Of a stretch of 64,000 bases of DNA, positions 1,996-39,276 are shown in pieces (positions within the stretch are counted from its first letter, which is position 1; every line of letters begins with the position of its first letter). The translations under genes and the position numbers were made by a program. The notes beneath the pieces are model-generated. The model made no database searches and had not been told where the DNA came from. It saw only the letters and a list, made by a program, of their open reading frames with translations. The DNA is from Pogonophryne albipinna (taxonomy: Eukaryota; Chordata; Actinopteri; Perciformes; Artedidraconidae), in the NCBI GenBank assembly GCA_028583405.1, contig CM053253.1:677013-741012 (forward strand), written 5' to 3'.

Positions 1996-4030
1996 GTAAC
2001 GACTCTGATTCATATAAATATCAGATATAAAACCTAATGAAAGAACTGCTGTTCCTACGATGTGTTTATAATAAACGCACCTTTCAAAATGAATCACAGC
2101 GAGTAATAAGACATGCTTCAGATCGTGGTACATAACTGTTTAGCAGCAGCACCTTTCAAATGACTTTAGTTGGATCTTTATGTAGCGCTGCAGTGTGTCG
2201 GCTTTGCCTTCAGTGACTCATAGTGGCCGTGTTTGAAAGCACACACACACCAGGATGAATTTGGGTGTGTGCGCTGCATATATAAACACAGTGAGAGACA
2301 TTCATTAAATACATGTTTCTAACTAAACTTAACACAAGAAGGCAATTTGTGTTTGATGGACGATTTCTATGTTGTAACAATGCTTGTTGGCATTGCTGTG
2401 TTTGGTTCTTCCACACGCTACTGAGGCGGCTTGCTAAATGAATCAATTGTTAATAACTCAATTGTTGCCAATGTGTCTTTATTGATCAGTCTTCAATCAT
2501 CCACTCCACCACACAAGAGTCAGCAGAAGAAAAAAAGCTGTCTATTATGACATTTGTCATGGGCGCACCCCACACACTCAGCTCTGCTGCTCATCCCACA
2601 AATGCTTGTTCCTCGCAAATGTGGTTCCATTGGAAAGATAAGAAAACAGGCTTTCCAACGGTATGAGATGTATTGCCAAAAGGCATTGTTACAACATAGA
2701 AATCATCTACCAAACACAAATTGCCTTACGTTTTGTGTCTTTACAACAATGATACTGTATATACAAATATTTAGACAACGTATCAAATAAGTACAATAAA
2801 AGATAACAAAATACTGATAATCTTAGTTTTTAAAAGCAATTAAAAACTGAAATATGTTTAATTTCTTAAAGAGGAAGCGTAGAACTGAATGTGACATTAG
2901 TCCTTTGTGAGAAGAGTCTGGGTCATAGTGCACGTCAGCGTTTATCAGACTTACCATAGTGTAATTGATTAGATAGCTTTCCAGTGAAGCGTACAACACA
3001 TCAGACCAAAGCGTGCAGAAAGAGGAGAAGTGAGGAGAGGGAGGGATCTACAAGCCGAACAGATCACAAAGAGACGCTTAGACCCCACAGATGTACACAA
3101 AGCGACTACAGAGGACATGGATTGACTAAACAGAAATGTAAGACAACCACAACATGACCACCAGGAGACCAACAGACTGAACACACTCTGGAGACCACAT
3201 AGAAAGAAAGGTGTCTTTAAAAAGATTGTTATAGCAGAATGTTTAATACAGCGTATTTCTGATATTCATTAAGGTCACATGCTAAGCTATATGATGTGTG
3301 TTACTGAGTTGGGTCACACAGTTAGAGAGACAATGGTTCTTCTGAGTTATCAATAGATGTATTCATTTGAAGTGAGCTGACACCGAGGGTAGAGGAAGTT
3401 CAGAGAAGGCCTCAGGTTATAAAAACAGATCACCTTTGTTAGTTAACTAATCCTAAGGATGTCATGAGACTAAACTAAATAATAATTACTGATCGGCTAT
3501 ATGTGTGTTTGTGTTTTATTGATTCCTCTCTGTTTCTGGATCGCCACAACAAGATGCACAAAGACTTAAATGAATGAACAACAATCACAAAGAGCCAAAA
3601 GGGTCCGGGGGAATATCTCACACAATGTATCTAAAGACGCACAAAGATCCCAAAGATGATTCCAGCCCACAGATATACACAACATGACGAAAACAACCTC
3701 AAGATATGTAAACAACCACAACATGAGATGAACACGCACTTTAAAGATCTGTTGAACGAGCAAAGAATCATCAATGCCTTAAAAAAGATGCAAAACAATC
3801 ACAAATAGGCGCAAAATTCCTAAGAATAGTGGAAAAAGTACTACAAACAAACACAACATGACTTTAAACAACCAAACATGACCACAAGGAAATGCAAACA
3901 GATTAAAAATATACTTCAAACAACCAAAAAGAAACATCAAATGCAGGGACGCGGGAAGTCAGTCAGAGTGGGGGTGGGGGGTGCGGGTGCCTCGCAGCGG
4001 CGAAACTGTGGCGCTTACACTGCGTTTGCG
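1996..4030. repeat. Non-coding stretch with an inverted repeat and degenerate ACAAAGAG repeats
   Basis: No gene seen. A roughly 60-bp inverted repeat lies at 2,338-2,398 and 2,672-2,728 (arms share CTATGTTGTAACAATGC), probably ends of a small palindromic element. Stretches 2,995-3,180 and 3,545-3,930 are degenerate AC-rich repeats built on motifs such as CACAAAGAGACG and ACAACCACAACATGA, resembling decayed fish minisatellite DNA. The same texture returns at 4,540-4,745. Confidence 0.5.
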
Positions 4031-4114
4031 CTTCAGATGAGGCTCCCTCCGCAAAACGAGGCCCCACGCAGTCTGCGTGATCTGCGTGGAGGGAGGGTCC
4101 GGTATAATAACGTC

Positions 4115-4350
4115 ACACTAAATGCAGTCATTTGTTCTTTAGCAACAGCTTGTGAGAGCAGCGCATTCATCAGTGTTCGTTTTAATGCTGCCAGTTTGTT
4201 GACGGCCTGTGTGTTGATGGGACTTCTCATGTTCCCTAAATGTTTCCTCTGCCTTTCGCCAGTTCTTAAACCGTGCTTTCACAAAACTCCCATCCCTGAT
4301 CTTGCGCTGACGAGCTTCTTTTCTATAGCAGAGCAACAGAAGAAGCACAC
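4115..4350 (-). pseudogene. hAT transposase exon relic (TTF-type zinc-finger, ZMYM1-like)
   Basis: On the minus strand two overlapping frames read as one conserved segment broken by a frameshift. The first gives a stretch containing GSFVKARFKNWRKAEETF and REHEKSHQH; the second continues with QAVNKLAALKRTLMNALL and SQAVAKEQMT. This order is typical of the N-terminal region of TTF-zinc-finger hAT transposases and ZMYM1-like proteins derived from them. The frameshift lies near the HQHT/QAVNK join. No TIRs or further exons are seen, so it is an isolated decayed fragment. Confidence 0.6.
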
Positions 4351-18954: not shown

Positions 18955-21900
18955 GATCGATATGGACATAAACGCGAGTGAAGTCTAATCTGACGGGAGA
19001 GAGAGATCAGCTGCTGCTGACGAGTCGACACGCAGCTCTGCATAATCACCTGCAGCGGTGAGCGGACAAAACACACACTTCAGGTTAGAATATCACACGT
19101 AGCTATTTTAATGACCTCTCAAACTACCTAAACTAGTTATAGATATGTTTAGAACAGGCGAATTACATATACAGTCACATGGACTTATTTGACATAGGGA
19201 TGAGTTGTCGCTCTGACATCACAGCCGATTTCCACCGGACTAACAACATCCCGGAGGACATAGCGAGACCGCTCGGGTCTCCCTGGATTGTTTTCGGGCC
19301 TGTGAAGCAACGCAGGCGCCGGAGGGAGAGGAAGCAGAAGCGAGGTTGCCGTGCAGGCCTGCTTGCTAGGCTAAGGAGGCGGCCGCACCGCCAGGTCCAT
19401 CGTCCACAAAATTGACGAATTGGAGGTACTACTAGCTGCTAACACGAACGTACGCGACTGCTGTGTGATGATCATCACAGAATCCTGGCTACACCCGCGG
19501 ATTCCGGACGCAGCAGTGCAGCTACCAGGCCGCTCTCCCCACTGCTACGACAGGAACAGCGCTTCCGGTAAGAGCCGAGGGGGTGGTCTGTGTGTTTACA
19601 TCCACAACGACTGGTGCATGGACAGCAGGGTTACACATACACATTGCTCTCTCGACCTGGAAGTAATGTCTATCATGTGCAGACCCTTTTACCTGCCCAG
19701 AGAGCTGACGGTGGTGATAATTAACACTGTTTATATCCCACCTGATGCTAACGCCAGCATTGCACTTGACCACCTCCAGAGCTTAATAAATAAACAACAG
19801 AGGTCCCATCCGGACGGAGTTCATATTGTTGCTGGAGACTTCAATCATGCATGTCTAAAAAATGTGCTTCCCAAATTTATACAATATGTACGATGTACCA
19901 CCAGAGGAAAGAACACACTGGACCGGGTGTATTCTAACCTGAAGCATGCTTACAGAGCGGTCCCACTGCCCCATTTAGGACTATCTGACCACCTCTCACT
20001 GCTTCTCATCCCAGCTTACACCCCCCTCAGAAGTAACACCAAGCCGGTGGTCAAATATATTAGAACCTGGCCCGAGGGGGCACTCTCACAACTGCAAGAC
20101 TGCTTCGAACACACAGCATGGGACATATTTGAACAGACAGACTTGGAGGAACACACAGAGGCTGTCTTATCCTACATCAAGTTCTGCACAGACACTGTAA
20201 CTGTGGAAAAACGCATTCGGGTCTACCCAAACCAAAAACCATGGATGACAAGAGCGGTGCGGTCTCTCCTGAGTTCCCGTGACACAGCCTTCACGTCGGG
20301 GGACGCAGCCCAGTACAGCTTGGCAAGGGCGAATCTGAGGAGAGGCATCAAGGCTACAAAGGAGGACTACAAGGGAAAAGTGGAGGAGAATCTCGCTCAT
20401 AACAACACACGGTGTGTTTGGCAGGGCCTTCAACAGCTAACCAACTATAAGGGCAAAACATCTGGCACTACTAGAGCTGACGCCCACCTTGCTGAGGAAC
20501 TAAACCACTTCTTTGCCCGCTTTGAGGCTACCAGACCCCCCCACTTTTCTATTCTGCCTCTGTCCCTGCAAACTACCAGCTCCATACCACCTCTCATTCT
20601 CAAAGAACATCAGGTAAAGCAGACGCTGAAGTCTGTGAATCCTGGAAAAGCCGCAGGACCCGATGGAGTACTCGGAAAAGTACTCAAAGCTTGTGCTGAC
20701 CAGCTTTCAGGGGTCCTGACCAGGATATTCAACCTGTCCCTGTCACAAGCTTGCATTCCATCCTGTCTGAAAACGGCTACCATCATTCTTGTCCCCAAAA
20801 AGACACCAGTCAGTGAGCTCAACGATTACAGGCCCATAGCCCTAACATCGGCGGTGATGAAATGTTTCGAAAGACTGATGGCCGACTACATCAAAGCCAG
20901 CCTCCCACCCTCCCTCGACCCTCATCAGTTCGCCTATAGAGCAAACAGATCCACGGATGATGCCATCGCCACGGTCCTTCACACAGCTGTGAGCCACCTA
21001 GAAGGCCCAGGCAACTATATAAGGATGCTGTTTATCGATTTTAGCTCCGCTTTTAACACCATCATACCTGACATACTAGTGGAAAAACTGTCAAGCCTAG
21101 GTTTCCCCTCCATCTTATGCGCCTGGATTATTAATTTCCTTACAGACCGTCCTCAGACAGTGAAAATAGGCCCTTATTGCTCCTCCACCCGCACCCTCAG
21201 CACTGGCTCCCCGCAGGAATGCGTGCTGAGCCCTCTACTCTACACTCTCTACACACACGACTGCTCTCCCATTCACCCCTCCAACTCCATTATCAAATTT
21301 GCAGATGACACCACTGTGATCGGCCAAATATATAAGGGAGACGACGAGTCGGCATACAGAGACGAGATCCTGAAGCTGTCTGTGTGGTGTTCAGCAAACA
21401 ATCTGTATCTGAACACAAGCAAAACAAAAGAAATCATCATAGACTTCAGAAAGCACCGTCCAGAACCCGCCCCCCTTCACCTCAATGGAGAGAGAGTGGA
21501 GAGGGTCTCCACCTTTAAGTTCCTGGGGGTTCACATTTCGGAGAGCCTCAGCTGGACGGCACACACCACTGCAGCAGTTAAGAAGGCCCAGCAGCGACTA
21601 CACTTCCTGAGGGTGCTTCGGAGAAACCGACTGAACAAGAAGCTGCTGGTGTCCTTCTACCGGGCGACCATCGAGAGCGTGCTGTCATACTCCATCTCGG
21701 GGTGGTATGCAGGATGCTCAGCTGCGGACAAGAAAGCCCTGCAGAGAGTGATCAGGATGGCAGAGAAAACCATCAGCTGCCCCCTGCCCTCTCTGGAACA
21801 CATCTCCACCTCCCGCTGCCTCAGCAGAGCTAACTAAATCATAAAGGACAGCTCTCACCCAGGTCACAGACTGTTCTCTCTCCTGCCTTCTGGGAGGAGA

Positions 21901-22996: not shown

Positions 22997-23297
22997 ATAT
23001 AGAGGAACTAAGACTTTCTACACGGACCACTATTGCGGTAAGCATGTTGTAACTTCCGGTTGTTGTTGTTGTCATCTCCGGGTATCCCGTGTGCCTGTTC
23101 TGTTGCTGATAGCTTATTATCTTAACTTAATCGATCGTTTTAAAACTCTTGATCACGGCAACTGCCTGACGTTGTAATCACACGTTACTACAGCTTAAGC
23201 ACTCACAACTCTCCTTCTCTTAGCGACTGTAATTCCACAGTTGCCTACACTCTTTTCGGGTTTGCTAACGGTAGCTACTTTAGCTTGATAGCTAGCC

Positions 23298-24155
23298 ATG
23301 GCTCTTTCCCCACCCTCGGGTGCTATTTCCTGCTCTTCCTGTCTCATGTTTGGTTACTTCCCTACCTCCTTTACTGGTACCGGTACATGTGTTAAATGTA
23401 GTATAGTTGTTAGGTTGGAGGCGGGAATCATAGCCATAGAAGCCCGGCTCCGCATCTTAGAAAGTAACTCAGCTACAGTAAAGCCCAAGTTAGCCGGTGC
23501 GGACCGGCAAAAGGTAGCTCCTCTTAGCCGTCCCCCGGCAACTCCCGAGCAGCAGGGAGACTGGGTGACTGTTCAGAAGGGGCATAACGCGAAACCCGCA
23601 GGTCCCCACCAACCCGTTCACGTATCTAACAGATATTCCCCACTCAGCGAGACACCCGCTGAGAAGCCAACTCTGGTTATTGGTAGCTCTATTATGAGAC
23701 ACGTGAATTTAGAGACCAAAGCCTCCACAGTCACATGCATTCCGGGGGCCAGAGCGGGCGACGTTGAGGCGCATCTTAAACTGCTGGCTAAAAATAAACG
23801 TAAATACAGTAGGATTGTTATTCACGTCGGTGGTAATGATGTTCGTTTACGCCAATCAGAATGCACCAAACTTAATGTGGAGTCGGTGTGTAGTTATGCT
23901 AAAACAATGTCGGACACCGTAATCTTCTCTGGTCCCCTCCCCAATCTGATCAATGATGACATGTATAGCCGCATGTCATCATTTCAGCGCTGGTTGTCTT
24001 GGTGGTGCCCAGCAAACAATGTGGGCTTCGTAAATAATTGGACAGCCTTCTGGGGAAAACCTGATCTGATTAAGAGAGACGGCATTCATCCTACTTTGGA
24101 AGGTGCAAATCTCATTTCGGCAAACATTTCAGGGCTTTGTGGACTTAATCCATGA
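23298..24155 (+). CDS. LINE ORF1 protein with SGNH/GDSL-esterase-like domain
   Basis: The ATG frame encodes 285 residues. Near the N-terminus two CxxC pairs (C12/C15, C31/C34) suggest a small zinc-binding module, followed by a short helical, possibly coiled-coil, segment (residues 36-57). A proline-rich linker leads to an SGNH-hydrolase-like domain: block I VIGSSIMRHV (127-136; GSS instead of GDS), HVGGND (176-181), and DGIHPTLEGANLI (from D261, H264), giving a plausible Ser-Asp-His arrangement. CR1/L2-group LINEs are known to encode ORF1 proteins with PHD-like and esterase domains. The frame is intact and ends just before ORF2 in the same frame. Confidence 0.8.
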   Translation: MALSPPSGAISCSSCLMFGYFPTSFTGTGTCVKCSIVVRLEAGIIAIEARLRILESNSATVKPKLAGADRQKVAPLSRPPATPEQQGDWVTVQKGHNAKPAGPHQPVHVSNRYSPLSETPAEKPTLVIGSSIMRHVNLETKASTVTCIPGARAGDVEAHLKLLAKNKRKYSRIVIHVGGNDVRLRQSECTKLNVESVCSYAKTMSDTVIFSGPLPNLINDDMYSRMSSFQRWLSWWCPANNVGFVNNWTAFWGKPDLIKRDGIHPTLEGANLISANISGLCGLNP

Positions 24156-24206
24156 CAAACTGGAGTTGAGACCAGGAGGCGGAGTCGCAGTCTTACACGC
24201 TTCTCT

Positions 24207-25980
24207 GTGCTCTCTCCTAGGCAGTCATCCATAGGAATCCCGAACCCAATAAAATACCCAATATTAACGGTGTGTGTGTCTGCCCAAGGACAATTAAAGG
24301 TAAAACCTAATAGAGGTGTCATACATAATAACATAATAAAAGTAAATGTAACAACTACTACAGTGCAACAAAACTGGAAGATTAAATGTGGTCTCTTAAA
24401 CATAAGATCTCTAGCATCTAAAGCAATATTGGTAAATGATTTAATATCAGATTATAATATTGATATATGCTGTCTCACTGAAACTTGGTTGAGACATGAA
24501 GAATATGTCAGCATAAATGAGGCCACTCCACCCAGCCATATCAATACTCATATTGCCCGAGGCGTGGGCCGAGGAGGTGGAGTTGCAGCAATCTTTGACT
24601 CAAGTTTACTTATCAATACTAAACCAAAATTAAATTATACCTCCTTTGAAAGTCTCGTTTTTAGTCTTACGCATCCGACCTGGAAAACTAATATTACACT
24701 AGATAGTAAACTAGAATGCTTTTCAGCCATAAACCTTGAACAATTAAATTCAATGATTCTCTCTTCTAAACCATCAACGTGTATGTTAGACCCAATTCCA
24801 ACTAAGCTGTTGAAGGAAGTTTTTCCATTAATTAGCACTTCTTTATTAAATATTATGAATATGTCTTTATTATCAGGCTATGTTCCACAAAAAGCAGTCG
24901 CAAAACAGTTGTGTGATTACTTAAAAAACAATGATTTATTTGAAGATTTTCAGTCTGGCTTTAGAACACATCATAGCACAAAGACAGCTCTGGTTAAAGT
25001 CACAAATGACATTCTAATAGCCTTAGACAAGGGACTTGTCTCTATTCTTGTTTTGCTCGATCTCAGTGCTGCATTTGATACTATCGACCATGATATCCTA
25101 TTGCAAAGACTAGAGCACTTAGTTAACATACAGGGAACTGCTTTAGGCTGGTTTAGGTCCTATCTATCTGAACGCTCTCAGTTTGTACGTGTCAACGATG
25201 AATCTTCCACGCAAACCAAAGTTAGCCATGGAGTGCCACAGGGCTCAGTGCTCGGACCTATTTTGTTCACATTATATATGCTTCCGTTAGGCAATATTAT
25301 AAGGAATCATTCTGTAAACTTTCATTGTTATGCGGATGATACTCAACTATATTTATCAATCAAGCCTGATGAAATTAATCATCTAAATAAAATTCAAGAC
25401 TGCCTCAAGGACTTAAAAATGTGGATGACCTTACATTTTTTGATGTTAAACACGACCAAAACTGAAGTTATTGTACTTGGCCCGAAGAATCTACGAAACA
25501 AATTATCTAAAGATATACTAACTATGGATGGCATTAATTTGGCCTCCAGTGAGACTGTAAGGAATCTTGGTGCTATATTTGATCAGGATTTATCCTTTAA
25601 CGCCCACATAAAATCAATTTCAAGGACCGCCTACTTCCATCTACGTAACATTGCAAAAATCAGGCATATCTTGCCTCAAAACGATGCAGAGAAACTAGTC
25701 CATGCATTTGTTACTTCAAGGCTGGATTATTGTAACTCCTTATTATCAGGGTGTACCAAGAAGTCAGTCAAGTCGCTTCAGCTGATTCAAAATGCTGCAG
25801 CTCGTGTACTAACCAGAGTTAGGAAAAGGGACCACATTACTCCTGTTCTGGCTGCCTTACACTGGCTCCCTATAGAACACAGGATAGAATTTAAAATTCT
25901 TCTTCTCGCCTACAAAGCCCTTAATGGGCAGGCGCCATCTTACCTTAAAGAACTCATTATACCCTACTGTCCTACTAGGG
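24207..25980 (+). pseudogene. LINE ORF2, first part: internally deleted endonuclease-RT, cut by hAT
   Basis: The frame is open with no stop, but parts are missing in frame. Endonuclease sequence runs from CGLLNIRSLASKAI through CLTETWLRHEEY and GRGGGVAAIFDSSLL to LTHPTWKT, then jumps to pre-RT linker (NITLDSKLECFSAINLEQL), losing the region that should hold GDFN and SDH. A second jump after MSLLSGYVPQKAVAKQLC removes the KPLLKK/NYRPIS motif. Later RT motifs remain: LLDLSAAFDTIDHDILL, SHGVPQGSVLGPILFTLY, CYADDTQLYL. The C-terminal TRLDYCNSLL, LQLIQNAAARVLTRV and ALHWLPIEHRIEFKILLL are intact up to CPTR at 25,980. The start is not an ATG and is uncertain. Confidence 0.75.
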
Positions 25981-26132
25981 CAGGGGTGCCCACACTTTTT
26001 GGGCCGGTGGGCTACTTTTTAAATGACTAGCTCACCGAGGTCTACCAACCAAAAATAAAATCCCAAATTGCAAGGGGCTGAATAACACGTTTTATGTATA
26101 CATGGGATAACTACAACAACTCTATTTGGGTT

Positions 26133-26529
26133 TGTGATGCCCCTGTGGGTTCATCAGTAGAGAGGAGGTGGCTGTGCTGTGGTGATTGGTGATTGGTGAT
26201 TGCAGTAACTCAGGGCACCTGGGTCTGGTGTCCTGCAGCTATTTAACGCCTCTCTGCTCCTCTCTGTTCTCTCTCTGCTTCTCCCTGCAGGCACACCGGT
26301 TTTGTTGAGTATGATAGGAGTTTATTCAGTTGCTTTACTTTGTGCACTTCAACACTCTCACACACATACATGTCCATACAATCCTCACCCTGCATTTACA
26401 TTACTGATACCACTGACTTCCACACCTCATACTTTACTGGTTTTGACTTGTTTGTCTTAAACACCATTACCTACCCGTTGATATGTTGTGTCTCCTTTTT
26501 GTTGTGGCCTTTTGAGCCAGGTCGCAACA
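26133..26529 (+). repeat. 5' LTR (397 bp)
   Basis: Begins TGTGATGCCCCTGTGGG and ends GAGCCAGGTCGCAACA. A TATA-like CTATTTAACG at about 26,239 could be the core promoter, followed by a pyrimidine-rich stretch. GATTGGTGATTGGTGATT at 26,180-26,200 holds three tandem CCAAT-box-like copies in inverse orientation (ATTGG). Confidence 0.9.
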
Positions 26530-26531
26530 AA

Positions 26532-26544
26532 TGGGGGCTCGTCC
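26532..26544 (+). other. Primer-binding site, tRNA-Pro type
   Basis: TGGGGGCTCGTCC begins two bases after the 5' LTR. It matches the first 13 bases of the well-known tRNA-Pro primer-binding sequence used by gammaretroviruses and some gypsy elements; after that the match is lost. Confidence 0.75.
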
Positions 26545-27099
26545 AACGGGTTATTTGTTTAAAAAGTTTGTGTAGTGCTCAGAGCACATGGTGTCATTGA
26601 GCAGCTGATTAATTGTTGTGGTCCAGCTGTGTGCTGGCTTGTCGCTGCTATTTGGGGGACACATCATGTCTTTTGGGTTTTAGGAGGCTGTAGTGTTTGA
26701 CATGTCGTCAGGTTTTGTGTGCCAATCAGAAGGTAAGATGTTGCTGTTTGTTACGCTTTTGTAAAAGAGATTTTCCCCGCTAGGCTTAAGTGGCGTTTCC
26801 CCTTGGGTTGCGTCTGTTTTTTTTTTTTTTTTCATAGTGTTGTGGCGACGTGGTTAGTGTCAGCTGTTTTCGGACAGCTGTCTCGGGGGCACGTCCGCGT
26901 GAGTTCTTGGTGTTACATGCGTGCAGGTTGCTCCATAACTCCGCCGGGTTCCAGTGCGTAATTACCCACCGCAAGCCACATGAAGACTAGGTGAGATTAG
27001 GAAGATTTTGTTTAGGCAGTTTGGGGGAAATTCTCTGTTGGGTTAATCTTATGCCCATGCGTGTTGGCAGGTTAATACTTTGCTTTCTGATTGGTTATT

Positions 27100-29277
27100 A
27101 TGACTTCTTTGTCAGCGTTTGTGGATGCGCCCTCAGTGTCTTTCTTAGATGATTGCCAGAAGGCGCAGTTGGTCGAAATAGCAGAGCACTATAACATTGC
27201 TGTTGTGGGGAGCAAGCGGAAACATGACATTAAAACTGTCATTGTGTCATCTTTGTTTGAGCAGGGGGTGTTGCAGAAGAGTGAGTCTGGTGCAGCAGGG
27301 TTCGTGCCGGTAGTGGTTCAGACAGCTGGTTTAACGTTCGAGCAGCAAAAGGAGCTTTTGGCCATGCAGTTTGATCAGGAGAGATTGCGGTTGGAGTTGA
27401 GGTTGGAGCAGGAGAAGTTGCAGTTGGAGATAAGGGGTCAGCAGCAGGAGGTAGAGAAGCGTTTAGAGGTGGAGAAGGTGCTGGAGGTGGAAAAGATGAA
27501 ATGTGAGGTGGAACATGCTAGATTACGGCTGATGGGAGAGGGCAAGTTTTCTCCAGGGGAGGATGGTGGTGATAGGTCGGCATCAGGCAGTGGCGATATC
27601 ATTTCTTACTTGCGATTAGTGCCAAAGTTCAATGAGCGTGACCCGGACATTTTTTTCACTCTATTTGAACGCATAGCAGAGGCAAGAAACTGGTCAGATT
27701 CGGACAGAGTGCTGTTACTTCAGTGTGTACTCACTGGGCGAGCACAGGAAGCCTATTCAGCTGTTTGTGGCGAAAATGCTTTGGACTATGATAGAGTAAA
27801 ATCAGCGGTGTTGAAGTCTTACGAACTGGTTCCTGAAGCGTATCGTCAAAGGTTCAGAAGTTGGGTCAAGGGAGATAAACAGACACATGTGGAGTTTATC
27901 CGTGATTTAACTTCTCATTTTCAGCGCTGGTGCGCGGCAGAAAAGGTTGCAAGTTTTGACGGTCTTTGTGAGCTCATTGTCTTGGAACAATTTAAAGACA
28001 TTCTCCCTCAGCGTGTGGCCACTTATGTGAATGAACAGAAGCCTTCCACCGCGTTTAGAGCTGCTGAATTAGCGGACGATTTTGTGTTGACACATAAGGG
28101 CAGTTTTACTGAGAAGTATTCTAGGGGTGATTGGAAACGTGGAGAAGACAATGGCTATGCCCGCGGTGGTGCAAAGTTTTCACCAGGCTCCTCCCGTAGA
28201 TTTGTAGGTCCAGGGCGATCCGAGGGCGCCAGAGTGGGCCAATGTCATTATTGCCGAGAAGAGGGTCATTGGAAGGAGCGGTGTCCGTTGCTGGAACCTG
28301 AGGGGAAGCCTCGTTCTTCATCACATGCTCCAGCCATGTGTTGTTCTGCCGTTTTGGTTAAAAAGCCGCAGGGTGTAAGATCGGGCATGGTGCCTGTTAA
28401 GAAGCTGGTTTGTGCCGACTTGGAGGTGGGTTCTGTTTTTGAGCCGTTCATAACGGAAGCCGTTGTATCAATGGTCGGTAGTGACAAGTATGTTCCGATT
28501 AAGGTGTTGCGTGACACAGCAGCTAGATACTCATTTATTGTTGAGTCCGTGTTGCCTTTTTCGTCAGAGACAGAAACAGGGGATTTTGTGCTGATGAGGG
28601 GCATGGAGATGGGCTTGATTCCTGTGCAACGTCATACAGTAGTGCTGGATTGTGAGCTGGTACGGGGAGTTGTGTCTATCGGCGTGCGTCCCGCGTTGCC
28701 ACTTGATGGGGTACAGATGATTTTGGGCAACGATCTAGCTGGTAGTGCTGTGTGGGCGGGTGTGCCACCGCCTGTGGTGATTTCCAGGCCGTTGGCATCT
28801 GTAGAGCCAGATGAGAGCGGTTTGCAATTTCCAAGTGTGTCTCCAGTTTATACTGTTACGCGTGCGCAGAGCCGTAGGATGTCGACTGGCCTGCCTGTTT
28901 CGGAGTCTGGAAAATGTGGTCCAGCACGGTCCTTGGACTTTGAGATCGAGACAAAGAAGAAGGAGAAGAAAAAAGAGAGGAAACCCTGCAAAGCGAACAA
29001 GAGGAGGCCGAAGAAGAGGAGGCCGAAGAAGAGGAGGCCGAAGAAGAGGAGGCCGAAGGAGGTCGGCGCGCCCAAGAGGCCGATGAGCGCCTACATGCTG
29101 TGGCTCAACGCCAGCCAACCCAAGGAGGAGTGGGACAGTGGCGGAGGAGGAGCGTCCTCCAGTCCTAAGAAGGAAATTAAAAAAGCTGGAATTAAGAAGG
29201 ATATTGGGTTGTCGTGGATCCCTTTGGGGCCCCGTCTTAAGGGGGGGGCTGTGATGCCCCTGTGGGTTCATCAGTAG
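27100..29277 (+). CDS. Gag-protease-like polyprotein fused in frame to SSRP1/HMG-box-like sequence
   Basis: The ATG at 27,100 opens 725 codons ending inside the 3' LTR. In order: an N-terminal region; a charged helical segment (about 80-150, repeats of EKxxLEVEK); a capsid region with SCAN-like C-terminal half (about 170-330; AYRQRFRSWVKGDKQTHVEF, LIVLEQFKDILPQRVATYV); a zinc knuckle CHYCREEGHWKERC near 381; a retropepsin-like part with DTAA near 471 (usually DTGA) and ILGND near 540. Instead of pol, the frame enters a lysine-rich stretch, four KKRRP units (about 634-653), then APKRPMSAYMLWLNAS near 656, which matches the HMG-box start of the histone chaperone subunit SSRP1, then KEEWD and a Gly/Ser-rich tail. 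The HMG box itself is largely deleted. The final WIPLGPRLKGG looks like retroelement sequence. Confidence 0.85.
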   Translation: MTSLSAFVDAPSVSFLDDCQKAQLVEIAEHYNIAVVGSKRKHDIKTVIVSSLFEQGVLQKSESGAAGFVPVVVQTAGLTFEQQKELLAMQFDQERLRLELRLEQEKLQLEIRGQQQEVEKRLEVEKVLEVEKMKCEVEHARLRLMGEGKFSPGEDGGDRSASGSGDIISYLRLVPKFNERDPDIFFTLFERIAEARNWSDSDRVLLLQCVLTGRAQEAYSAVCGENALDYDRVKSAVLKSYELVPEAYRQRFRSWVKGDKQTHVEFIRDLTSHFQRWCAAEKVASFDGLCELIVLEQFKDILPQRVATYVNEQKPSTAFRAAELADDFVLTHKGSFTEKYSRGDWKRGEDNGYARGGAKFSPGSSRRFVGPGRSEGARVGQCHYCREEGHWKERCPLLEPEGKPRSSSHAPAMCCSAVLVKKPQGVRSGMVPVKKLVCADLEVGSVFEPFITEAVVSMVGSDKYVPIKVLRDTAARYSFIVESVLPFSSETETGDFVLMRGMEMGLIPVQRHTVVLDCELVRGVVSIGVRPALPLDGVQMILGNDLAGSAVWAGVPPPVVISRPLASVEPDESGLQFPSVSPVYTVTRAQSRRMSTGLPVSESGKCGPARSLDFEIETKKKEKKKERKPCKANKRRPKKRRPKKRRPKKRRPKEVGAPKRPMSAYMLWLNASQPKEEWDSGGGGASSSPKKEIKKAGIKKDIGLSWIPLGPRLKGGAVMPLWVHQ
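29239..29249 (+). other. Polypurine tract
   Basis: AAGGGGGGGGC stands directly before the 3' LTR, where plus-strand DNA synthesis is primed in LTR elements. Confidence 0.8.
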
Positions 29278-29646
29278 AGAGGAGGTGGCTGTGCTGTGGT
29301 GATTGGTGATTGGTGATTGCAGTAACTCAGGGCACCTGGGTCTGGTGTCCTGCAGCTATTTAACGCCTCTCTGCTCCTCTCTGTTCTCTCTCTGCTTCTC
29401 CCTGCAGGCACACCGGTTTTGTTGAGTATGATAGGAGTTTATTCAGTTGCTTTACTTTGTGCACTTCAACACTCTCACACACATACATGTCCATACAATC
29501 CTCACCCTGCATTTACATTACTGATACCACTGACTTCCACACCTCATACTTTACTGGTTTTGACTTGTTTGTCTTAAACACCATTACCTACCCGTTGATA
29601 TGTTGTGTCTCCTTTTTGTTGTGGCCTTTTGAGCCAGGTCGCAACA
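29250..29646 (+). repeat. 3' LTR (397 bp)
   Basis: Same length and, by eye, same sequence as the 5' LTR. The polyprotein ORF stops 28 bases inside it (TAG 29,275-29,277). GGGTT follows as target duplication. Confidence 0.9.
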
Positions 29647-29689
29647 GGGTTCTTGAACAGAAACAAATACATGAATACATAAAACTAAA

Positions 29690-29943
29690 ATGGCATGTTA
29701 ACCGCTCTCTATTTCTCTCTCTCTCTGTTAAGAAACACATAACAAGCAGGCTAAGAAACCACTCTCCATGTCCTGAAATCTTAAACATAAAACACAAATA
29801 TAAGTACAAGGAATACAATAAACGAGTAGAACACTCAACTTAGACACCAGACTCAAATGGGTCCTATGAACAGTCTCTCAAAGTTATAATGATATATACA
29901 TAGGTCCAATATAGGCATGTTAACTCTCTCTCTCTCTCTCTCT

Positions 29944-29977
<34 letters not shown>

Positions 29978-30070
29978 CTGACTGTCCCTTAATTTCCCTG
30001 TTAAGAAACACATAAAAACAAGCAGGGTAAGAAACCTCTCTCCATGGTCCTGATATAATGCTGCAAAACA
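29690..30070. repeat. Tandem duplication with (CT)n arrays in the hAT 3' region
   Basis: GGCATGTTAAC, a CT run, CTGTTAAGAAACACATAA, AAGCAG and CTCTCCATG occur in the same order at 29,690-29,780 and 29,913-30,045. The second copy has a longer CT array (29,923-29,983). The transposase ORF runs through the second copy, giving its C-terminus a string of alternating Glu-Arg. Confidence 0.7.
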
Positions 30071-31957
30071 CAATTCAATATATTTAAGTGGCTCCCTACC
30101 ATATTCTGATGACTTGCACTGAATGGAGTCCGTCAATGTTGCATAATCAGGACAGTAACTGCTGATGGCTAGTCTCAGGCAGGCCTCCAAATGTTCATCA
30201 GTTAAGGTGGAACGGTATTTCGACTTCACTATCTTCATTTGGGAGAAGGCTGACTCGCATAAATAAGTCGAGCCGAAGAGTGAGGTCAGTGAGGTGGCAC
30301 ATTTTCTGACGTTTGGATAGTTTTCAGCCCTGAATAAGTTCCAAAACTGTCCGGCATGGGCACGCGCCTTCAACTGGATGTCGGCCTGCAGCGACAACAT
30401 CTCATCCTCCAGCGCAGACGGGTTCAGATGAAACACTGCTCCGATGTTTTGGGCCAGCGAATCAATATCATGGTCTTCACTAAATGGATAGCACATGAAT
30501 GTGGCGATTGGCTCGAGCAAAGCGAAGTCTCGGAAGCGTTTCTCGAAGTCAGATGTAATGTTATTGACTTGCTCTGTGTAGCGCGCACTGTCAAGGAGCG
30601 CGCTGTCCTTCCCTTGCTTCTCCAGCTCAGAGGCGATGTTTTGGAAGTTGGCCAAATCTTTGCGCTGCAGCTTTGAACACAGCAGATGCAGTCTTCGTTT
30701 GAAGGCATTAACTGAGCTGATCATGTCAACCACAGTTCTGTCTTTCCCTTGTAGCTCCAAGTTCAGCTCATTTAACATGTGTGTAATGTCTGTTAAAAAC
30801 GCCAAATCTAACAGCCACTCCTCGTCATCTAGACGTGCGTACTCCGCGAGCTTGGTGCCATGGAGAAATGCCTTTATCTCCGGTAGAAGCACTCGAAATC
30901 TCTCGAGAAAATTGCCCCTACTCAGCCATCTTACGTCGGTGTGTAGTAAGAGGTCAGTGTGAACACAGTCGGCATCCTCCAGATATGCACGAAACAGCCG
31001 TCTTTGAAGAGGTCTTGCCCGAATAGAACAGGCCACTTTAAGTGACACATCCATGACCTCTTTCATGTTCAGCATTTTAGCACAAAGTGCGTGCTGGTGT
31101 ATGATGCAGTGATAATTCAGAAAGTCAGGGAATGTGTCATCCTCTCTGCATTTTGCGATGAAGCCATTACACCGGCCCACCATCGCAGGCGCACCATCCG
31201 TTGTGATGGAACTCAACTTAGACATGGGGAGTTTAGTTTTGTCAACAAAGTTTTTAAACGTCCGAAAAATGTCCTCGCCCCGAGTGTGTTCCTTCATTGG
31301 CAGAATTGTCAGCAGTTCCTCTTTCGCCGTCATGTCTGTGAACACCATCCGGATAAAAACGCACAATTGTGCTGTATCGCTCACGTCAGTGGACTCGTCT
31401 AGTTGGAGTGAGAAACACTCGCAGTCTTCTATGTCCTTCCTGAGTTGCTGGGTCAAATCCTCAGCCATGACTTCACAGCGACGTGTGACTGTGCTCCGTG
31501 ATAATTGGACGGCCTTGATAGCGTTTACTATTTCTGTTTTGTTTGTGTAATCCCGAAACAAGGCGTCTGCTGCTTCTACGAAGGCTTCTTTCACCATCTC
31601 TCCATCTTGAAAGGATTTTTTGTGTTTGATTATAGCGTGACTCACTCGTAGAGATGCTTCAGTGGCTGCCTTTGCGGTGGATGTCGGCTTTAAGAAAAGT
31701 GACTGCTGTCCAGCTAATTGTGACTTAAGTTCCCTCACCTTTCTCTTTCTCAACTCGCTACTCGGAGGGAAGTCGCTGTCATATGCCTTGTGAACACTCC
31801 GATAATGCCTCTCCACGTTACATTTCTTTGGCAGAGCGACGCTTGCTTTACAAATAAGGCAAATAACGTTTGAATGTGACATCACAAAAAAATATTCTTC
31901 CTCCCATTCTGGGTGGAAGTGGTATGTTTTTAGCTTTTTGCTCGGTCCCGCACTCAT
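29864..31957 (-). CDS. hAT transposase (Charlie/SCAND3-GTF2IRD2-like), 697 aa
   Basis: The enzyme cuts and rejoins DNA at the hAT ends. The minus-strand ATG at 31,957 opens an uninterrupted frame. Residues 33-56 form a C2H2-like BED-type finger (CLICKASVALPKKCNVERHY). The RNase-H-fold catalytic core has FSLQLDESTDVSD (D187) and ITTDGAPAMVG (D254), then YHCIIHQHALCAK and VRWLSRGNFLERF. The C-terminal dimerisation region has FGSTYLCESAFSQMK with the conserved glutamate, then YRSTLTDEHLEACLRLA. Domestic relatives include ZBED5, SCAND3 and the Charlie-derived part of GTF2IRD2. After about residue 640 homology ends and the frame continues through (GA)n sequence, so the normal stop is probably lost and the C-terminus is abnormal. 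Confidence 0.85.
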
Positions 31958-32253
31958 TTTGTTATTTGTCTCTTGTTTACATTAATTTGAGTTTTCCCGC
32001 ACTTGACTGATTTTATATCGCTTTGCATTCTGGGTTAACAGACTGGAAAGCGATAGGTCGCTTTTTCTGTCAATCAAGTAAACTCCTGAATTAAGTGGCA
32101 GGGAGGCCAAAGGAGGAGGGATCAAAACCTGTTTTGTCTATTTCAACGGAGCTTTATTTTTTTTTTTTAATGAATGACTCGCGGTCTACCAGCATTGCCC
32201 CCGCGGGCGACCGGTCGCCCGCGGTCGACGTACTGGGCACCTCTGTACTAGGG

Positions 32254-37821: not shown

Positions 37822-39276
<1,455 letters not shown>

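Follow-up and report, generated by a model that had tools for sequence, protein, structure and literature searches.

Several groups of long terminal repeat (LTR) elements carry host genes. The onc genes and occasional captures of animal and plant host genes by LTR elements have been described (PMC6431247), and crocodilian endogenous retroviruses (ERVs) have acquired KIT-ligand and nectin3 (PMC4299795). In zebrafish, a 'fifth class' comprises LTR pairs enclosing host genes (PMC8672886). Here, an LTR element from the fish Pogonophryne albipinna is described, in which gag runs in frame into sequence of the host chromatin-protein gene SSRP1. It is located in a stretch of 64,000 nucleotides, the window (assembly GCA_028583405.1, contig CM053253.1, positions 677,013 to 741,012, forward strand). 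The best explanation of the locus is that it belongs to a Ty3/gypsy-like LTR family that is young, non-autonomous and present in many copies, and in which pieces of several host SSRP1 exons form a patchwork at the end of gag.

The SCAN domain goes back to a Gmr1-like gypsy element, whose gag was its source (PMC3424704), and zebrafish has 97 SCAN sequences in 1119 gag genes (PMC8672886). The integrase of avian sarcoma and leukosis virus binds FACT (PMC8149907), and FACT/SSRP1 has been linked to the integration of human immunodeficiency virus 1 (PMC5534098) and to ERV silencing (PMC7834818). A published capture of SSRP1 by an LTR element was not recognised among the matches listed, which are only part of the hits. 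The element raises the question whether its fragment of a host chromatin protein is carried along by chance or has brought a new function.

Capture of spliced SSRP1 mRNA

The frame is open from 27091 to a stop at 29275-29277. With the ATG at 27100, it has 725 codons (27100..29277, plus strand) and terminates within the 3' LTR. It passes from a SCAN-type capsid over a zinc knuckle and a protease-like stretch into the SSRP1 tail. A sequence-only reading of this DNA had described this single frame, and its span was right for the open reading frame (ORF); the whole element covers 26133-29646. That reading also proposed that an SSRP1 transcript had been captured in part, with the start of the HMG box behind four KKRRP units. 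The host genome bears this out exon by exon.

The genome searched was the window's own (1,073,210,567 bases, 861 contigs). Human SSRP1 382-516 as query led to a single locus with three exon matches, C3:26394518-26397311 (five candidates). The insert is built from five exons of the host gene, A, C, D, E and F, which were compared word by word at the DNA level with 52 copies of the element, including the window copy. It begins with a piece of exon A (28925..28956, plus strand as all parts of the element), identical to the host in 31 of 32 nucleotides (nt) and in 32 of 32 in seven of the 52 copies. A shortened piece of exon C (28957..28995) joins exon A at a common ACAAAG, as judged by eye. The KKRRP units are a 15-bp tandem repeat of four (K/N)KRRP units (28996..29055) that grew out of the one KKRRP present in host exon D. 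The exon D piece KKRRPKEVGAPKRPMSAYMLWLNAS with the HMG-box start (29041..29116) equals the host in 76 of 76 nt, an identity present in 31 of the 52 copies. At the exon D/E joint (29122..29137), AAGGAG is followed by GAGTGGGACA in the absence of the 967-nt host intron. The end of exon E (29151..29171) is identical in 21 of 21 nt. The start of exon F (29172..29201) has 25 of 29 nt in common with the host, 26 of 29 in 15 of the 52 copies, and follows exon E without the 75-nt intron.

The joints C/D, D/E and E/F are crossed by the element with 25/28, 16/16 and 29/31 nt, respectively. The corresponding host introns of 95, 967 and 75 nt are all GT...AG introns, and the host reading frame is continuous through exons C, D, E and F. 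Unspliced sequence in the fetched gene region differs from the C/D, D/E and E/F words at no fewer than 7, 4 and 10 positions, respectively. The spliced joint was superior to the unspliced sequence in 51 of 52 copies for C/D (the exception has this part deleted) and in 52 of 52 for both D/E and E/F. With three GT-AG introns missing at the joints, the source was therefore a spliced SSRP1 mRNA, and it came from this host lineage. The hallmarks of a host mRNA transduction are all present: a DNA match to the donor, intron-free joints and a junction that spread with the element. Judged by eye, the captured sequence is shortened in several places. Exon C lacks 24 nt between two AAGGAGAAG words, exon D has lost most of its HMG-box sequence, and exon E is mostly missing, as is a large part of the Gly/Ala run.

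At the protein level, SSRP1 was the top match of the insert among PDB sequences (E 4.7e-6), followed by HMG-D (0.0015) and HMGB1 (0.044). A second SSRP1 match, not mentioned by the sequence-only reading, is the segment RS[F/L]DFEIETK. RSLDFEIETKK (28927-28959) aligns with human SSRP1 387-397 with a score of 46; the best score in 582 windows of the upstream ORF was 31, and none of 2000 shuffles reached 46. The third residue encoded by exon A is the F of the host, not L, in 16 of 62 copies. QPKEEWD aligns with human SSRP1 591-597, a score equalled in 9 of 3000 shuffles and in 0 of 597 gag windows. GGGGASSSPKKEIKKAGIK aligns weakly with human SSRP1 616-634 (equalled in 68 of 3000 shuffles and 0 of 588 windows). 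Short in-frame pieces of the insert had no useful match among PDB sequences. GC at third codon positions amounts to 0.92 for the HMG part and 0.40 for the final part of the insert, with 0.49 for gag-pro; this is a soft sign only, because 24-codon windows of gag (n=586) already reach a maximum of 0.88.

The element and its copies

The element (26133-29646, 3514 nt, plus strand) has LTRs of 397 nt with TG...CA ends that are exactly identical (26133..26529 and 29250..29646). They are flanked by a target-site duplication, GGGTT (26128..26132 and 29647..29651). Behind the 5' LTR lies the primer-binding site TGGGGGCTCGTCC (26532..26544), presumably of the tRNA-Pro type. All 21 copies in which both LTRs are complete have these 13 nt after the 5' LTR. 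The polypurine tract AAGGGGGGGGC (29239..29249) is directly 5' of the 3' LTR. Paired LTRs with a target-site duplication and adjoining primer-binding site and polypurine tract identify an LTR retrotransposon. The LTR at 26133-26529 is poor in CpG, with an observed/expected ratio of 0.19 versus 0.73 in leader and gag-pro.

Gag is recognisable by the SCAN-type capsid domain (27832..28098; Pfam PF02023, E 2.2e-19) and a CCHC zinc knuckle (28240..28287); the Pfam score of the knuckle is under the cut-off, and the scan of the ORF detected these two domains only. The protease-like stretch (28513..28734) is defined by motif alone, with DTAA at 28513-28524 and ILGND at 28720-28734. The aspartic protease motif is usually DT/SG; the window copy has DTAA at the expected place. 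A Pfam or PDB match of this stretch was not obtained, and its structure model was useless (predicted local distance difference test, pLDDT, 35.5). What the sequence-only reading had observed is confirmed, with its knuckle below the threshold and its protease-like segment present as the two motifs. Reverse transcriptase (RT), RNase H and integrase are absent between the LTRs in the ORF list and the Pfam scan. The element is non-autonomous, as had been proposed, and is filed as gypsy-like only by its gag, because a gypsy-type pol was not found.

Copies were collected with the insert, gag and the LTR as queries, and the best 40 of 313, 40 of 445 and 40 of 1223 candidates were considered, respectively. 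Copy counts cover these best-scoring candidates, chosen for likeness. The rows of the insert query were 94-100% identical over the full query length, with one row short by one base, and all rows of the gag query were printed as 100%. Fetching 30 places for the insert, 30 for gag and 10 for the LTR, with seven gag places repeating the insert set, gave 63 distinct places including the window copy. The SSRP1 insert is located right after gag-protease at an identical 5' junction in 62 of these; the 63rd was not readable. Of the 62 places, 30 had been picked with the insert as query, and those chosen by gag (29) or LTR (10) are the fairer test: the insert was present in 39 of 39 readable places. 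The SSRP1 sequence in frame with gag was copied widely, as LTR-flanked insertions with target-site duplications.

Of the 62 copies, 61 read the HMG fragment in frame with Gag, and 61 keep the frame up to KKEIKK/KKGIKK, or KKEIEK in copy L068, close to where the captured part ends. Copy L058 is interrupted after KKEIKK. The number of RRP units ranges from one to seven across 60 copies. All 609 gag codons are open in 24 of the 29 readable gag-selected places and broken in five; the 24 comprise 21 of 22 new places and, among the seven repeats, the window copy, L035 and L041. Among the insert-selected places, 17 of 30 are open over the 509 fetched gag codons. Judged by their frames, many copies look able to make the Gag-SSRP1 fusion despite decay.

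The LTRs of 12 of the 21 complete pairs are identical, and the family therefore moved recently; a complete pair was lacking at 9 of the 30 loci. An exact 5-bp duplication flanks 17 of the 21, the others having a cut edge (2), one base off (1) or an LTR indel (1). A fish substitution rate of 1.46e-8 per site and year has been published (PMC8672886). With this borrowed rate, 0 differences over 397 sites place the window copy under ~0.26 million years at 95%. Sub-lineages are visible as well. In L040, L046, L050, L053 and L054, GACGG takes the place of AACGG behind the primer-binding site, and the LTRs of L056 are ~90% like those of the window copy over part of their length. L062 carries ~2.1 kb of extra sequence between the insert and the 3' LTR (2040-4170), with inverted AGAGCCTGTGACA-type ends. 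A pol hidden in this longer copy was rejected: the extra sequence resembles a DNA transposon, and its ORFs of more than 60 amino acids are, by eye, unlike pol.

The LTR element begins ~100 nt beyond the end of a pair of ORFs like those of long interspersed nuclear elements (LINEs) at 23292-26030 (plus strand). The pair consists of a GDSL-esterase ORF (23292-24155) and an RT ORF (24156-26030) with a partial endonuclease match. A second LINE-like ORF (19375-21837, plus strand) encodes 820 amino acids with endonuclease and RT and has no stop. Directly beyond the 3' LTR, an open frame of 705 amino acids on the minus strand (29864-31981) encodes a hAT dimerisation domain and a Spin-doc-type zinc finger and extends into a CT microsatellite. 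C2H2 zinc-finger arrays at 817-1599 and 37822-39276 (plus strand) have 9 and 17 finger matches and a common leader, KPKGRERRHSCQQCDKSFT.

Movement and function of the tail

Capture of SSRP1 and spread of the fusion are near certain. As to the mechanism, a packaged SSRP1 mRNA and the element RNA may both have served RT as templates, with switches at short matches such as ACAAAG. Alongside this template switching, pol and most of the HMG box would have been lost. The element encodes no pol, and the enzymes must therefore come from elsewhere, in trans. Gag and the cis signals would be supplied by the element itself and the enzymes by a pol-bearing relative. Gypsy-type integrase genes are abundant in the genome: 150 of 150 scored over the cut-off (best 150 of 3879), many in long ORFs. 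Movement in trans is very likely, and capture, spread and movement in trans taken jointly, leaving aside any function of the tail, are held with high confidence. Donor gene, splice joints, break points and many young copies are all present together in a single genome, which makes this an unusually clear example of host-gene capture by mobile DNA. A base-by-base comparison of donor and product is possible, and how templates were switched, how the capture was shortened internally and how the repeat grew can be tested directly.

Several observations weigh against the view of a helper-moved family with a working SSRP1 tail. The chief one is the ratio of nonsynonymous to synonymous polymorphism (pN/pS). 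Across 29-30 copies, it is 0.19 for the capsid part and 0.46 for the knuckle-protease part. For the captured part, it is 1.48 (0.87 without the repeat, 1.77 for the HMG part), on only five synonymous changes. Purifying selection on the captured tail was sought by pN/pS and not found. Gag carries the mark of function, partly perhaps from before the capture; the tail does not. The retained frame was rejected as proof of tail function. The length of the tail changes mostly within the repeats, in steps of 3 or 15 bp that preserve the frame by themselves, so the kept frame is weak evidence. Decay is evident in a stop within the 509 fetched gag codons of 13 of the 30 insert-selected copies, in a one-base loss within the insert of L011, the exception to the kept frame, and in one-base frame shifts directly after KKEIKK in L046 and L050. 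Moreover, a pol-bearing element with these LTRs was not found, as all 10 further LTR-selected copies hold the insert. Six stretches of 1.7-1.9 kb past integrase domains had no match to this LTR; no LTR was recognised in them, and they may end before their own. Scanning viral_contigs yielded no relatives. The sequence-only claim that pol was replaced is upheld in part: pol is absent, but no pol-bearing relative with these LTRs was found that would place the break points.

Other origins of the tail were weighed against direct capture from mRNA. A processed SSRP1 retrocopy could likewise have supplied intron-free sequence as DNA. For the region covered by human SSRP1 382-516, the query gave the intron-bearing gene on C3 alone among its five candidates and no separate retrocopy; this origin has a small probability. 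The tail is rich in K/R and partly a tandem repeat, which would suit a chance or low-complexity similarity, or an assembly artefact. The shuffle and window scores and the comparison with host DNA rule out the former; the junction in 62 of 63 places, which also excludes a single-copy artefact, rules out the latter. Together with the 76/76 nt identity, three exact splice joints and the target-site duplications, they leave this explanation a negligible probability. The same 76/76 nt identity rules out that the SSRP1 piece is a misread pol or linker sequence.

Given capture from spliced mRNA and spread, the tail could be a functionless passenger, and the chance of this is about even. A defective short element that kept its cis signals would have been amplified by a helper, and the tail would have been retained through recent common descent. 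The pN/pS near or above 1 in the captured part, compared with 0.19 in gag, the widely drifting repeat number and the destroyed HMG fold support the passenger, as do the 12 of 21 identical LTR pairs, which left little time for decay. Against it stand the insert in 39 of 39 gag- or LTR-picked places and the 76-nt stretch of exon D that has stayed identical to the host in 31 of the 52 copies; the gag picks are near-identical to the window copy and thus biased, and both observations are compatible with descent alone. Alternatively, the Gag-SSRP1 fusion could act as a decoy that disturbs the host FACT complex, a repressor of ERVs. FACT was reported to repress ERVs in mouse embryonic stem cells (PMC7834818), and the captured gene encodes a FACT subunit. 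The fusion, however, retains no more than ~10 middle-domain residues, the basic stretch and the initial turns of the HMG box. SSRP1 binds SPT16 with its N-terminal part, which is absent from the fusion, and a decoy is very improbable.

A useful function of the tail would more plausibly lie in binding. The HMG box is incomplete: it covers 18 of the 69 positions of the profile and scores 17.7 bits (E 0.005) versus a cut-off of 25.4. The tail has 35 K/R versus 11 D/E in 94 residues, and the preceding 609 residues have a net charge of -6. The model of the tail, made without an alignment (mean pLDDT 64.9), is unfolded except for a single short helix, located at AYMLWLNA. Segments of murine leukaemia virus (MLV) p12 and foamy virus Gag tether complexes to nucleosomes (PMC9861059). 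Binding or nuclear entry comes first among the possible functions because the tail is very basic and modelled as unfolded, and because viral Gag segments tether complexes to nucleosomes. Through its basic, unfolded tail, Gag may have gained the ability to bind nucleic acid or chromatin, or to bring its particles into the nucleus. The sequence-only reading had likewise suggested a nucleic-acid- or nucleosome-binding tail, a proposal that finds no support in the pattern of substitutions. Such a benefit, weak effects included, is a tentative proposal with somewhat less than an even chance. That part of a host histone-chaperone subunit became a working Gag tail with nuclear entry or nucleosome binding is rather unlikely. 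If true, a gain by the SSRP1 tail would explain why the pol-less, SSRP1-bearing form alone is seen with these LTRs.

Comparison with known systems

Acute transforming retroviruses likewise combine a Gag-host fusion with the loss of pol, helper dependence and internal deletions of the captured gene. Here, no oncogene is involved, and many germ-line copies are present in the genome. The crocodilian ERVs, as reported, also have host mRNA between LTRs in more than one copy, usually with viral genes lost. They are retroviral elements with longer ORFs of ligand and surface proteins, in contrast to the chromatin-protein patchwork in frame with a pol-less, gypsy-like gag. The described zebrafish fifth class shares LTRs around host gene sequence in a fish. 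Its interiors are reported to be wholly cellular genes, whereas gag is kept and fused in this element, which is an intron-free, repeated unit. Features in common with the reported SCAN-bearing Gmr1-like gypsy elements are the SCAN-type capsid in gag and the LTRs. Unlike them, the element has no pol and carries the SSRP1 tail instead. With MLV p12 and foamy virus Gag, the element may share a mode of action, a Gag segment on nucleosomes, as an analogy only, with no homology claimed. LTR capture of host mRNA is known; distinct here are the patchwork of a chromatin protein in the gag frame, the young copies and the donor gene present in the same genome.

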